A stretch of DNA of 42,874 nucleotides from Novosphingobium sp. (GTDB lineage Bacteria; Pseudomonadota; Alphaproteobacteria; Sphingomonadales; Sphingomonadaceae). The notes under the pieces were generated by a model. It had not been told where the DNA came from. It did no database searches and saw only the letters and a list, made by a program, of their open reading frames with translations. This document shows, piece after piece, positions 7,620-24,744 of this stretch (within the stretch, counting starts at the first letter, position 1; every line of letters begins with the position of its first letter). The stretch covers positions 110,160 to 153,033 of the forward strand of contig JAGNTK010000001.1 of assembly GCA_017987575.1 (NCBI GenBank), read 5' to 3'. A program made the translations under genes and the position numbers.

Positions 7620-8402
7620 AGCGGTTAAGAACGCCACCAGCGCCTTGACCTTTTTCTGCCGCCACTGCGGCGTCGGGGCGACCAGCCAGTAGCCGTGGCG
7701 GCAGGGGGCCAAGTCGCCCAGTGCGGCAATCCGGCCGTTGTCGAACCAGCTTTGCGCCAACAGAACTGGCACGCGGGCCTTGCCCATGCCCGCTGCGGCA
7801 GCGGCAATCGCCTGTCCGGCATCGCCGACGATCAGCGGCGGGCTATCGCAGCCATCGCCTTCGGGGCTGGCATCGCCCGGCCAGGCAATCCAGCAGCCCT
7901 CGCCAACTGTAACCCGGCCCGGCTCGCCCAGCGCGGTGCCTTCCAGTTCGCCCGGCCCTTCGGCCCAGCGCACCGCCAGATCGAGGTTGGCCTCGGTGAA
8001 ATCGGCGTCTTCATCGCTGACCAGCGAGAATTGCACTTCGGGGTTGGCCTTGCGGAACGCGGCCAATCGCGGTGCCAGCCAGGCCGAGAAAAACTCGCGC
8101 GGGGCTGCGATGGTATAGACATGGCTCGATTGCCCGGCCTGCATCGCCCGCACCGCATCTTCGAAATGCAGGAACCCGCTGCGCAGGGCCTCAAGCCCGG
8201 CGCTGGCCTCTTCGGTCAGTTCCAGCCCCTTGGGGGTGCGGCGGAACAGCACGACGCCAAGGACGTCTTCCAAGGCGCGGATTTGCTGGCCGACCGCCGC
8301 CGGGGTCACCGCCAGCTCATCCGCTGCGCGGGTAAACGACAGATGCCGGGCAGCAGCATCAAACACGCGCAGGGCGTTGAGCGGCAGGTGGGTGCGCTTC
8401 AT
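7617..8402 (-). CDS. LysR-family regulator, GcvA-like, short
   Basis: The 261-residue protein starts at the ATG at 8402. The N-terminal winged helix-turn-helix (NALRVFDAAARHLSFTRAADEL, then VTPAAVGQQIRALEDVLG and LFRR) is typical of the GcvA/AmpR subgroup, with FTRAA and AVGQQI in the recognition region. The effector-binding part is shorter than the usual 290-310 residue total: it has the first lobe (VRWAEG segment) but a compressed second half. It lies 10 bases after apaG on the same strand and is probably co-transcribed with it. Its target is unknown; the neighbouring amidohydrolase or the divergent antiporter are candidates by position only. Confidence 0.88.
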   Translation of the reverse strand: MKRTHLPLNALRVFDAAARHLSFTRAADELAVTPAAVGQQIRALEDVLGVVLFRRTPKGLELTEEASAGLEALRSGFLHFEDAVRAMQAGQSSHVYTIAAPREFFSAWLAPRLAAFRKANPEVQFSLVSDEDADFTEANLDLAVRWAEGPGELEGTALGEPGRVTVGEGCWIAWPGDASPEGDGCDSPPLIVGDAGQAIAAAAAGMGKARVPVLLAQSWFDNGRIAALGDLAPCRHGYWLVAPTPQWRQKKVKALVAFLTA

Positions 8403-18531: not shown

Positions 18532-19065
18532 GTGAAGGCAATTGTTCCCCTCTGCTGCTTGGCCACTCTGGTGCTCGGTGCTTGCGCCTCGGCGCCAAAG
18601 CCGGTGCCGCCGCCCGTTGTGGTCAGCCACCCCAAGCCGGCACCCAGGCCAGCCCCCCTGCCGCTTCCTCCTGCTGACTGGCGAGATGCCCCGCAGACGA
18701 CTGGAAACTGGACCTGGGCACTAGTTTCTGGCCGCTCGACTGCCAGCTTTGGCCTGCCCGGTGCGCCGCCGCTGGCCTTGCTGAGCTGTGATCGCGCCGC
18801 TGGACAAGTCCATCTGGTCCGTGCGGGTTCCGCCGCGACTGCGGTGCCGCTGGCTGTTGCGACCAGCAACCTGCGCCGTCCCTTGATGAGCGATCCGGCT
18901 CGCAGTCCGGCTGGCTGGCTGGTGGTTGTGTTGAGCGCGCGCGACCCGCTGCTGGACGCTATCGCCTTTTCACGCGGCCGTTTCGCGCTGGAGGCCGCGG
19001 GCCTCGAAACGCTGTATCTGCCAGCCTGGCCCGAACTGAGCCGGGTGATCGAAGACTGCCGCTGA
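18532..19065 (+). CDS. Proline-rich lipoprotein of unknown function
   Basis: The 177-residue reading starts at the GTG at 18532; no ATG fits and the codon bias and signal support this start. The N-terminus (VKAIVPLCCLATLVLGACAS) is a lipoprotein signal with lipobox LGAC, so the protein should be lipid-anchored to the envelope. A linker rich in proline (about residues 24-52) precedes a compact domain of about 120 residues with WTWALVSGRSTASFG, LLSCDRAAGQVHLV and LLDAIAFSRGRFALEA. The domain is probably a small beta-structure; I do not recognise the family. The gene is divergent from tlyA. Confidence 0.75.
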   Translation: MKAIVPLCCLATLVLGACASAPKPVPPPVVVSHPKPAPRPAPLPLPPADWRDAPQTTGNWTWALVSGRSTASFGLPGAPPLALLSCDRAAGQVHLVRAGSAATAVPLAVATSNLRRPLMSDPARSPAGWLVVVLSARDPLLDAIAFSRGRFALEAAGLETLYLPAWPELSRVIEDCR

Positions 19066-19255
19066 GGGAAGATCGGTCGCCCGCGAAGCAGGCCCGAAAC
19101 GGTGAATACTGACGCCAAAAAAAATAATCGCAAGTCTTGTTGTGCGGTGCAAAATGATTCACACCTATGGTTAAGGACGGCGCGCCGAAGGGTGCTTCGG
19201 GCCCCAGCTCTCAACCGGGGGCGCTTGGCTTTAACAGTGTGAAAGGAGGTGACCG
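19066..19255 (+). promoter_or_regulatory. Leader region of a small transcription unit
   Basis: This stretch has no gene. It contains an A-run (19117-19124 region), a weak promoter-like area (TTGTTG at 19137, CTATGG at 19165, spacing longer than ideal), a GANTC methylation site (GATTC 19156-19160) and ATGGTTAA at 19167-19174, which read backwards is the CtrA half-site TTAACCAT. Two hairpins follow: CCGAAG/CTTCGG (19185-19200) and GCCCC/GGGGC (19201-19222). The start of transcription is not defined by sequence; about 19175-19180 is a guess. Confidence 0.4.
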
Positions 19256-19312
19256 ATGTCTCATGGTTCAGCAGAGGGGTCGGTAATCCGCAGCATGGAG
19301 CATTATCGCTGA
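19256..19312 (+). CDS. 18-codon mini ORF with near-perfect Shine-Dalgarno
   Basis: The ORF reads MSHGSAEGSVIRSMEHYR and ends TGA. It is preceded by AAAGGAGGTGA (19242-19252), an 11-base perfect complement to the 3' end of 16S rRNA, with the start codon 3 bases after the match. No other gene in the window has such a strong site. The peptide has no hydrophobic stretch and no known motif. No larger frame continues it. It may be a true small protein, a leader peptide whose downstream gene has been lost, or simply the ribosome-docking part of a regulatory RNA. I do not recognise it. Confidence 0.55.
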   Translation: MSHGSAEGSVIRSMEHYR

Positions 19313-19340
19313 GTCAGATCGCAGTGATAGAGGTTTCGTG

Positions 19341-19402
19341 AGCGGCGCTTCCGGCCGCTGACCATGTGAAGGGCTGCTTCCGGACTGACCGGGGCAGCCC
19401 TT
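19341..19402 (+). terminator. Two hairpins ending the mini-gene transcript
   Basis: AGCGGC (19341-19346) pairs with GCCGCT (19354-19359). The second hairpin is stronger: AAGGGCTGC (19369-19377) pairs with GCAGCCCTT (19394-19402), with an inner CCGG/CCGG stem around ACTGA. The sequence after it is CTCATTTGT, a weak T tract. The second hairpin would end the rightward transcript and may also stop the convergent gene that ends at 19422. Confidence 0.65.
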
Positions 19403-19421
19403 CTCATTTGTGCCGTTGATC

Positions 19422-20021
19422 TCAAAACCAAGAGATGAAAATTTTGGTCACTTCGGGCCGGGCCGCTTTTAGCCTGGGATCATCGGCCCGCAGCACCAGC
19501 CCGTCTCCCTGAATCCCATCAGGCACTTCGCTCACATCGCGGCCTACATCCATCACTAACCCGATCCGGCACCCGCCGGGCCACCGCGCCAGCTTGCCGC
19601 CGCGCGGATCAACCCCGCCGCCATAGTCCCAGCCGAACCCGCCGATCTCGACCGGACGACCATTTGCGCGCAGCACGGCATCGAGCCGCGAGCCGACACC
19701 TATCCCGCCGATCCGCCAGCGTGATCTGGGATCGCTGATCCGGATCGATTCGACAAAATTAGGAGGCCGCTCTTCAAAAAATATATCTATCCGCCGCTTG
19801 GGATCGTTCGGCCACAGCGCCATACCGTCGGCCATTTCGCCCTCGGCCGCGTGTATCGGCATCGCCTTCGCTTGCGAACCAAAGCGCTTTATCAAACTGG
19901 CCGCAGTATCGCCGTGTTTGACCGGCACCGCGCAGGTCAGAGCGCGCAGCGGCGGGGCCTTGACCGGGGTGGCGGCTAGCAAGGGCAGCGCTGTGCAAAC
20001 AATCAGCACGGAACGGTTCAT
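19422..20021 (-). CDS. Exported protein of unknown function
   Basis: The 199-residue protein starts at the ATG at 20021 (MNRSVLIVCTALPLLAATPVKA), giving a signal peptide and a short mature protein of about 175 residues. The mature part has a CAVPVKHGDTAASLIKRFG segment, DGMALWPNDPKRRIDIFFE and a GIGVGSRLDAVLRANGRPVEI stretch that looks like a beta-sandwich with a repeated edge strand; GGFGWDYGGGVDP and CRIGLVMDVG follow. Two cysteines could form a disulfide. I believe it is a sphingomonad periplasmic family without assigned role. It is convergent with the mini-gene unit and divergent from ilvE. Confidence 0.7.
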   Translation of the reverse strand: MNRSVLIVCTALPLLAATPVKAPPLRALTCAVPVKHGDTAASLIKRFGSQAKAMPIHAAEGEMADGMALWPNDPKRRIDIFFEERPPNFVESIRISDPRSRWRIGGIGVGSRLDAVLRANGRPVEIGGFGWDYGGGVDPRGGKLARWPGGCRIGLVMDVGRDVSEVPDGIQGDGLVLRADDPRLKAARPEVTKIFISWF

Positions 20022-20183
20022 CGCGGCACTCTCCTTTGCAGCACATAGTGCACCACTTGGCCTTTGACGCAATCCCGGCTATGCAGGAAAGCGTTATGGC
20101 GACTATGCATTAATTACATCACGCTTGCACTGGACGTAATTTTCGTTCAATGCCAGCGCTTCGCACGTGAAGGATCAGAGCCG

Positions 20184-24669: not shown

Positions 24670-24744
24670 TGGGGCGTCGCCAAGTGGTAAGGCAGCGGCT
24701 TTTGATGCCGCCATTCGCAGGTTCGAATCCTGCCGCCCCAGCCA
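24670..24744 (+). tRNA. tRNA-Gln (anticodon TTG)
   Basis: The acceptor stem TGGGGCG (24670-24676) pairs with CGCCCCA (24734-24740). The D arm, the anticodon stem GCGGC/GCCGC with loop TTTTGAT and anticodon TTG at 24702-24704, and the T arm GCAGG-TTCGAAT-CCTGC are all complete. The discriminator G and the CCA end (24742-24744) are encoded. There is no integrase or direct repeat nearby. Confidence 0.97.

Follow-up and report, generated by a model that had tools for sequence, protein, structure and literature searches.

The DNA analysed here, hereafter called the window, is a stretch of 42,874 nucleotides from a Novosphingobium sp. contig. Within it, a convergent gene pair, formed by a lipoprotein-like ORF on the plus strand and an ORF on the minus strand, flanks a gap of 356 bases. 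The gap possesses a compact unit composed of hairpins, a Shine-Dalgarno (SD) sequence, an 18-codon ORF and a terminator. Both the gap and the unit had been described in a first-pass annotation of the sequence and both were borne out, and the fold of 19160-19413 was better than that of 200 out of 200 shuffled sequences (z -3.96). The features are as follows.

Ending at 19065, plus strand: lipoprotein-like ORF, the upstream neighbour.
19131-19165, plus strand: predicted promoter, from comparison of upstream regions, with CAAGTCTTG at 19131-19139 (-35-like palindrome) and GATTCACACC at 19156-19165 (-10 region with GANTC).
19170-19240, plus strand: predicted 5' leader, poorly conserved in sequence; its GC-rich hairpin, seen in the fold, is variable.
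19241-19252, plus strand: extended SD GAAAGGAGGTGA (GAAAGGAGGTGATCC in most relatives), the strongest in the window and near-invariant in 125 distinct loci, a conservation which is circular as the loci were gathered with an SD-rich model.
19253-19283, plus strand: possible start-codon hairpin P0, CCGATGTCTC (19253-19262) with GAGGGGTCGG (19274-19283), from RNAalifold on 73 sequences; it excludes P1.
19256-19312, plus strand: 18-codon ORF MSHGSAEGSVIRSMEHYR with ATG at 19256 and TGA stop at 19310-19312; the frame is open in 137 of 137 distinct loci.
19262-19272, plus strand: 5' arm of helix P1, CATGGTTCAGC, in codons 3-6; pairs with 19357-19366.
19297-19334, plus strand: stop-codon hairpin (last codons and stop), with many compensatory pair changes in 73 sequences.
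19357-19366, plus strand: 3' arm of P1, GCTGACCATG, just 5' of the terminator; the CGC.GACCATG columns are invariant in the 36-sequence alignment.
19369-19409, plus strand: intrinsic terminator AAGGGCTGC...GCAGCCCTT with a T-rich tail and a covarying stem.
19422-20072, minus strand: converging ORF of no known family.

A GC hairpin is also situated between the stop-codon hairpin and the terminator. Counts across loci refer to 166 loci, 137 of them distinct after removal of similar ones; one locus (L253) is truncated by a contig end, and four weak matches to the Rfam family RF01867 without AAGGAGG (L188, L189, L190 and L224) were excluded before all counts on the 166. A terminator-like hairpin was observed in 162 of the 166. 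The protein of the converging ORF showed no Pfam or NCBIfam match at E <= 1e-3, and among the best 80 of 178 confirmed stretches it has scattered relatives in Bradyrhizobium, Asticcacaulis, Xanthobacter, Bacteroidetes and others. The only tRNA of the window, tRNA-Gln (ttg) at 24670-24744 on the plus strand, is also its only Rfam match at gathering level.

The SD GAAAGGAGGTGA is a perfect 12-base complement of the 16S tail; the match had earlier been given as perfect, which holds, and as 11 bases long, which falls one short. It is the sole place in the window with an anti-SD match of at least 11 bases. Its predicted duplex (20 nt before the start) was -22.9 kcal/mol, compared to -13.8 kcal/mol for the next among 35 heuristically picked ORFs of the window, in agreement with its earlier description as the strongest ribosome site present. 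The 16S tail used, GGATCACCTCCTTTCT, was typed from recall and then matched in one genome of the same genus (G002). The tail pattern gave no match in the own genome and matched only 1 of the 21 genomes searched; since the 16S 3' end pattern is absent even from some complete genomes, rRNA stretches may be masked in the collection. In the alignment, the own genome and some near kin are without one T of GAAAGGAGGTGATCC that is common to most relatives. The ribosome-site pattern AAAGGAGGTGRTCNNNTGTC occurs at most once per genome in 191 of 192 genomes of the class and twice in the remaining one; it is present in 39 of the 192 and missing from the own genome, which has one T fewer.

Such a site could also act as an SD-bearing sponge for small RNAs with anti-SD sequences, e.g. 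those of the alphaR8 family, as CrfA does for SisA-D in Caulobacter. The SD core would pair with UUUCCUCCCU, and a sponge of this kind from the same class is described in the available part of PMC12559287. There, the G/A-rich SD-like element of CrfA fits the alphaR8 10-mer, whereas the site in the window is complementary to the 16S tail and precedes a start codon and an ORF, both of which a sponge leaves unexplained. The predicted duplex of the alphaR8 core was -8.7 kcal/mol against -15.7 kcal/mol for a perfect alphaR8 target, while the 16S tail duplex reached -24.6 kcal/mol for the own sequence and -29.9 kcal/mol for the typed class consensus. The alphaR8 duplex is thus weak beside that with the 16S tail, which argues that the site is tuned to 16S. 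A sponge function is very unlikely on this evidence, and its alphaR8 form was rejected because the duplex is too weak, strong complementarity to UUUCCUCCCU not being found.

The first-pass annotation had proposed a covariance search to identify relatives of the unit. Positions 19233-19400 align with the full length (positions 1-159 of 159) of the model of RF01867, the Caulobacter sRNA CC2171, with 37.2 bits and E 1.7e-6, and, like it, contain the ribosome site, the terminator and the long-range helix that precedes the terminator. The match was seen at a relaxed threshold and is below the gathering score of 75 bits, so the window copy is called a divergent relative of RF01867 and not a member. 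The initiation block GAAAGGAGGUGAUCC-NN-UGUCUCAU of RF01867 is present, the own copy being one T short, and so is the helix that joins the codons following the start to the bases preceding the terminator, although the 73-sequence RNAalifold consensus favoured a start-codon hairpin. The sphingomonad element differs from RF01867 in its P1 partners (CAUGGU/ACCAUG vs CAUUGUC/GACAAUG), in its longer predicted 5' leader and in its stop-codon hairpin.

By blastn (E < 1e-20), the element was found in 36 of 37 genomes of the same genus (counting the own) and in none of 24 from other families, which confirms that the observation is beyond chance; the exception, G026, is a genome of about 530 contigs. 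An alignment of 30 fetched copies is near-invariant from the SD through codon 9, followed by a varying middle and conserved hairpins and terminator, with no indel within the ORF. The first-pass annotation had named loss of the ORF or the SD in relatives as what would speak against the unit, and both the SD and the open frame proved to be conserved. At the level of the order, RF01867 matched 77 of 147 genomes at E <= 1, and none of the 147 scored above gathering level; in the own family, E <= 4e-4 was reached by 61 of the 63 genomes listed as matching. Across the class, 80 of 337 genomes matched at E <= 1e-3, 13 of them above the gathering score, and the other 257 gave no match at that threshold. 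Among 14 control genomes, Caulobacter vibrioides alone matched. The named genomes reached via other loci matched in 18 of 24 cases at E <= 0.01, some weak matches being dropped by stricter filters; the 18 include Methylobacterium, Methylorubrum, Prosthecomicrobium, Devosia, one Asticcacaulis, Bradyrhizobium, Qipengyuania and Novosphingobium, and the 6 without a match are three Asticcacaulis, two Xanthobacter and one Rhodoblastus.

A model was also built from 36 sphingomonad-type copies only; 12 of 48 candidates had been omitted from its alignment by eye, mostly for an uncaught terminator end. Of the 90 loci of other types, 52 were submitted to it and 51 of these were found at E <= 1e-3. Within the own family it found relatives in 185 of 199 genomes and 86 of 91 genera, mostly as a single copy, and none in the other 14 genomes; the plasmid collection gave no match to the element. 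One genome (G061) holds both an MSHC-type and an MSHGS-type copy (L113 and L219), so these types may be paralogues.

Rfam types RF01867 as an sRNA gene, and translation is absent from its description as given in the search output. No paper describing function or translation of CC2171/RF01867 was found in our literature searches. The earlier remark that this is the least explained signal of the window thus stands as far as a described function goes, but not as regards kinship, as a relative exists in Rfam below its threshold. CCNA_R0051 of Caulobacter may be the CC2171 RNA, judging from the offset between the numbers of the flanking genes. It is described as a 209 nt RNA with its own promoter between CCNA_02253 and CCNA_02254, up 4.4-fold with mitomycin C, not specifically (PMC6237742, available part), and is listed as G1-expressed in the portion at hand of PMC5988900. 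RF01867 is named among the families whose structure gained one covarying pair in Rfam 15 (PMC11701678, in excerpt), and a Mesorhizobium survey lists a match to it (PMC5596092, likewise in excerpt). A survey of Bradyrhizobium for small ORFs and sRNAs (PMC5082802, accessible part) held nothing that could be tied to the element.

Translation of the ORF is strongly supported by start-codon variation together with a frame that is kept open. The start falls at one site in all 166 loci, as ATG in 116, GTG in 44 and TTG in 6, a conservation that is partly circular given the way the loci were gathered. The frame test is independent of the ribosome site used for that collection. No stop was observed within the first 14 codons in any of the 137 distinct loci, compared to 60 in the +1 frame, 43 in the +2 frame and a mean of 37 in shuffles. 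The ORFs are 14-55 codons long and all three kinds of stop codon are used; one exceeds 40 codons, against a mean of 43 in shuffles of the 137 distinct loci. Eight further loci came from 40 matches to the site pattern only; seven have complete ORFs of 24-56 codons and the eighth runs off the end of its contig. In a small search the sphingomonad model recognised every one of the eight at E <= 0.005.

The first-pass annotation had considered a small protein, of which the translation finds support and the conserved peptide does not. In that reading the unit is a micropeptide gene, i.e. a plain small mRNA for a 14-36 residue peptide with a clade-specific function. The strong translation signals favor it, and some peptides are alike within clades (MSHCHxPR and VSFTKRCHLAGIAR), with N-termini MSHGS, MSHCH and MSS recurring. 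One lineage, represented by L191 and L259, has the same ribosome site before an ORF of 55-56 residues with a signal-peptide-like start, and these are the only ORFs above 40 codons seen. A synonymous bias in codon changes, which had been suggested as a check, was not found. Counted from codon 5, changes at positions 1, 2 and 3 numbered 5434, 6258 and 3336 in 1372 non-independent pairs of the sphingomonad type, with non-synonymous and synonymous codons at 8166:1185. The MSH[CRSY] type (14 non-independent pairs) gave 65, 77 and 71 with 114:25, and the remaining types (10 non-independent pairs) gave 44, 47 and 43 with 71:23. Changes are thus not concentrated at third positions, positions 1 and 2 changing as much as position 3, non-synonymous ones dominate, and amino-acid conservation of the kind sought in a small-protein family was not found. 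The EQP motif which recurs near the C-terminus in 12 loci is GGARCARCC in the DNA, and a GGAGCARCCTC-like element falls in other frames in L218, L220 and L255, which marks it as an RNA element and not a peptide. The four peptides tried against Pfam and NCBIfam gave no match above cut-off, one of them a weak Pfam match of E 0.19. As judged from these alignments the peptide itself is not conserved, and a micropeptide gene is considered rather unlikely.

Five Bradyrhizobium-type loci (L183, L185, L186, L187 and L198) possess a 14-codon ORF encoding VSFTKRCHLAGIAR or a close peptide. Its DNA holds a 16S-tail-like stretch, GUCACCUCGCUGGGAUC, complementary to the ribosome site of the same RNA.

Compensatory change in the stop-codon hairpin of the sphingomonad type can be exemplified by one pair which is CG in 39, GC in 16, UA in 1 and GU in 1 of the 73 sequences, with 10 unpaired and 6 gaps. 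P1 links codons 3-6 with the bases before the terminator, and its arms differ between clades (CATTGTC/GACAATG, CATGGTT/GACCATG, ATGAGATT/AATCTCAT, CATGAAT/ATTCATG and CGAGATC/GATCTCG). A plain helix search with no position rule gave shuffle p <= 0.05 in just 16% of 82 loci, and a position-aware cross-locus test was adopted after it. For three groups of loci, P1 reached threshold in this test in 29 of 34, 66 of 73 and 27 of 55, compared to 12, 24 and 17% in the cross-locus controls. Because P1 hardly varies inside the sphingomonad type, the support for it comes mainly from comparison across clades. RNAalifold placed P1 in the consensus of 36 sequences, where it lies outside the terminator stem and coexists with it, and not in that of 73 sequences.

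P0 hardly varies within the 73 sequences of RNAalifold, and its partners covary in some other clades. A P0 helix above threshold was found in 24 of 43 other-type loci (20% in shuffles), 15 of 38 of the MSH type (23%) and 6 of 41 of the sphingomonad type (18%). The predicted probability of an unpaired start codon was 0.60 in the MSH types except SHG (35 loci) against 0.27 with shuffled downstream sequence, 0.43 against 0.41 in the sphingomonad type (33 loci) and 0.43 against 0.36 in the others (35 loci). Predicted accessibility of codons 3-5 was lower than in shuffles solely in the MSH types except SHG (0.28 vs 0.40); it was 0.48 vs 0.48 in the others and 0.50 vs 0.38 in the sphingomonad type. 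Masking of the start codon was therefore not shown by predicted accessibility in these three groups of at most 35 loci each. The masking model has some comparative support but failed this test, and for this reason P0 is listed as a tentative hairpin.

The segment 19131-19165 is predicted to be the promoter belonging to the unit, and a putative transcript start may be placed from its position. A CTTG element was found in 71 of 73 distinct sphingomonad-type upstream regions. In 57 of these 71, GANTC follows within 32 nt past CTTG, compared to 8.6 expected from shuffling, and in 41 the distance is exactly 16 nt. The GANTC in the -10 region would fit a CcrM methylation site. In the sphingomonad type the promoter has a CAAGNCTTG palindrome with GANTC 16 nt on, all four bases being seen at N. 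The available part of the published table in PMC5988900 gives no CcrM site for CCNA_R0051.

The neighborhood of the unit bears on another reading, an attenuator or leader of the downstream branched-chain aminotransferase gene (NCBIfam NF009897, 506.6 bits). This gene was present in 48 of 56 sphingomonad-type loci, sharing the strand of the RNA in 47 of the 48, and the leader ORF, hairpins and terminator are attenuator-like. The upstream lipoprotein-like gene (52/56) and TlyA (48/56) are equally conserved, which points to ordinary synteny; the neighbors are on the same strands as in the window in nearly all loci. A relative of the minus-strand gene was present in 10 of the 56, the window included. 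None of the four window neighbors was found at any of 51 other-type loci, in flanks that reach about 1.5 kb on either side at most, and the flanks of these types vary between lineages. Apart from one Val-Ile, the peptide shows no clustering of Ile, Leu or Val codons, and P1 does not overlap the terminator stem. An aminotransferase attenuator is highly improbable and was rejected, as the downstream gene was not found at the 51 other-type loci within these flanks and P1, in the consensus, does not compete with the terminator. The proposal that the unit is a leader which lost its gene finds no support in the same evidence, since sphingomonad-type loci keep the genes of both sides alike.

The loading site, start codon, short open frame, stop-codon hairpin and P1 appear to be kept across loci, as supported by comparison, and the amino acids do not. 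We infer that the selected activity is the loading of a ribosome and not the peptide, the most economical account being an RNA whose state follows ribosome loading. SD-like 5' stabilisers of transcripts have precedent, and the strong ribosome site might be an expression device only, stabilising a transcript whose function lies in base pairing by its 3' part. The ribosome site is near the 5' end and the 3' module, GCUGACCAUG plus the terminator, carries the invariant CGC.GACCATG. A stabiliser needs no start codon, yet the start, the spacing and the open frame are kept, which makes this account quite unlikely.

The reading preferred here has a probability of roughly 0.45. In it, the unit would be a stand-alone gene with a predicted promoter and terminator, belonging, as its sphingomonad branch, to a family of alphaproteobacterial small RNAs akin to RF01867; the RNA would be translated, with selection on ribosome loading and not on the peptide, and is probably a ribosome-gated regulatory RNA. 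A 30S subunit would dock through its 16S tail, forming 12-15 base pairs. As it initiates and translates, the ribosome would then open P1 and halt at the stop-codon hairpin, leaving the 3' module exposed. P1 would close without a ribosome, so that the RNA may have two states, ribosome-bound and folded, and the regulatory output may be exerted in trans by the exposed 3' module or may lie in the stability of the RNA itself. The option of a regulatory RNA docking on 30S subunits, raised in the first-pass annotation, comes closest to this; the ribosome site and helices are kept as it would lead one to look for, and the docking and regulation are what our model suggests. Gating of the RNA state by the ribosome gains no support from predicted start-codon accessibility, and this prediction and the competing P0 fold are the weakest points of the gating reading. 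The available part of Schrader 2014 (PMC4117421), in which Caulobacter intergenic ncRNAs are mostly untranslated and two earlier ones are translated, counts against the preferred reading.

Known systems share single features with this scheme. The rnTrpL/peTrpL RNA of Sinorhizobium likewise has a short translated ORF in a small RNA, but it is leaderless and situated before trpE (PMC10117765, available part), whereas the SD of the element is extended and no gene downstream is retained across the family. In the icaR mRNA of Staphylococcus aureus a 3' sequence likewise pairs with the initiation region of the same mRNA; according to the accessible portion of PMC3868564 that pairing covers the SD itself of a full gene, and here it involves codons 3-6 of a micro-ORF.

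A wider and distinctly less probable proposal, unlikely at present, is that of a ribosome-sensing RNA across much of Alphaproteobacteria. Typically one gene per genome would carry a near-complete complement of the 16S 3' tail, and its fold and regulatory output would report how many free 30S subunits or intact 16S ends are available, with the micro-ORF as a reset and the peptide discarded.

If the preferred reading is true, the unit would be a rare case in which the function conserved is the loading of a ribosome as such, and it would give a direct handle on why a bacterium keeps an SD of 12-15 bases when far shorter ones serve other genes. An RNA filed as an uncharacterised Caulobacter sRNA appears to be part of a widespread alphaproteobacterial family which must be translated and whose peptide is immaterial, suggesting that a small RNA may carry a non-coding annotation and still be translated, with no conserved product.
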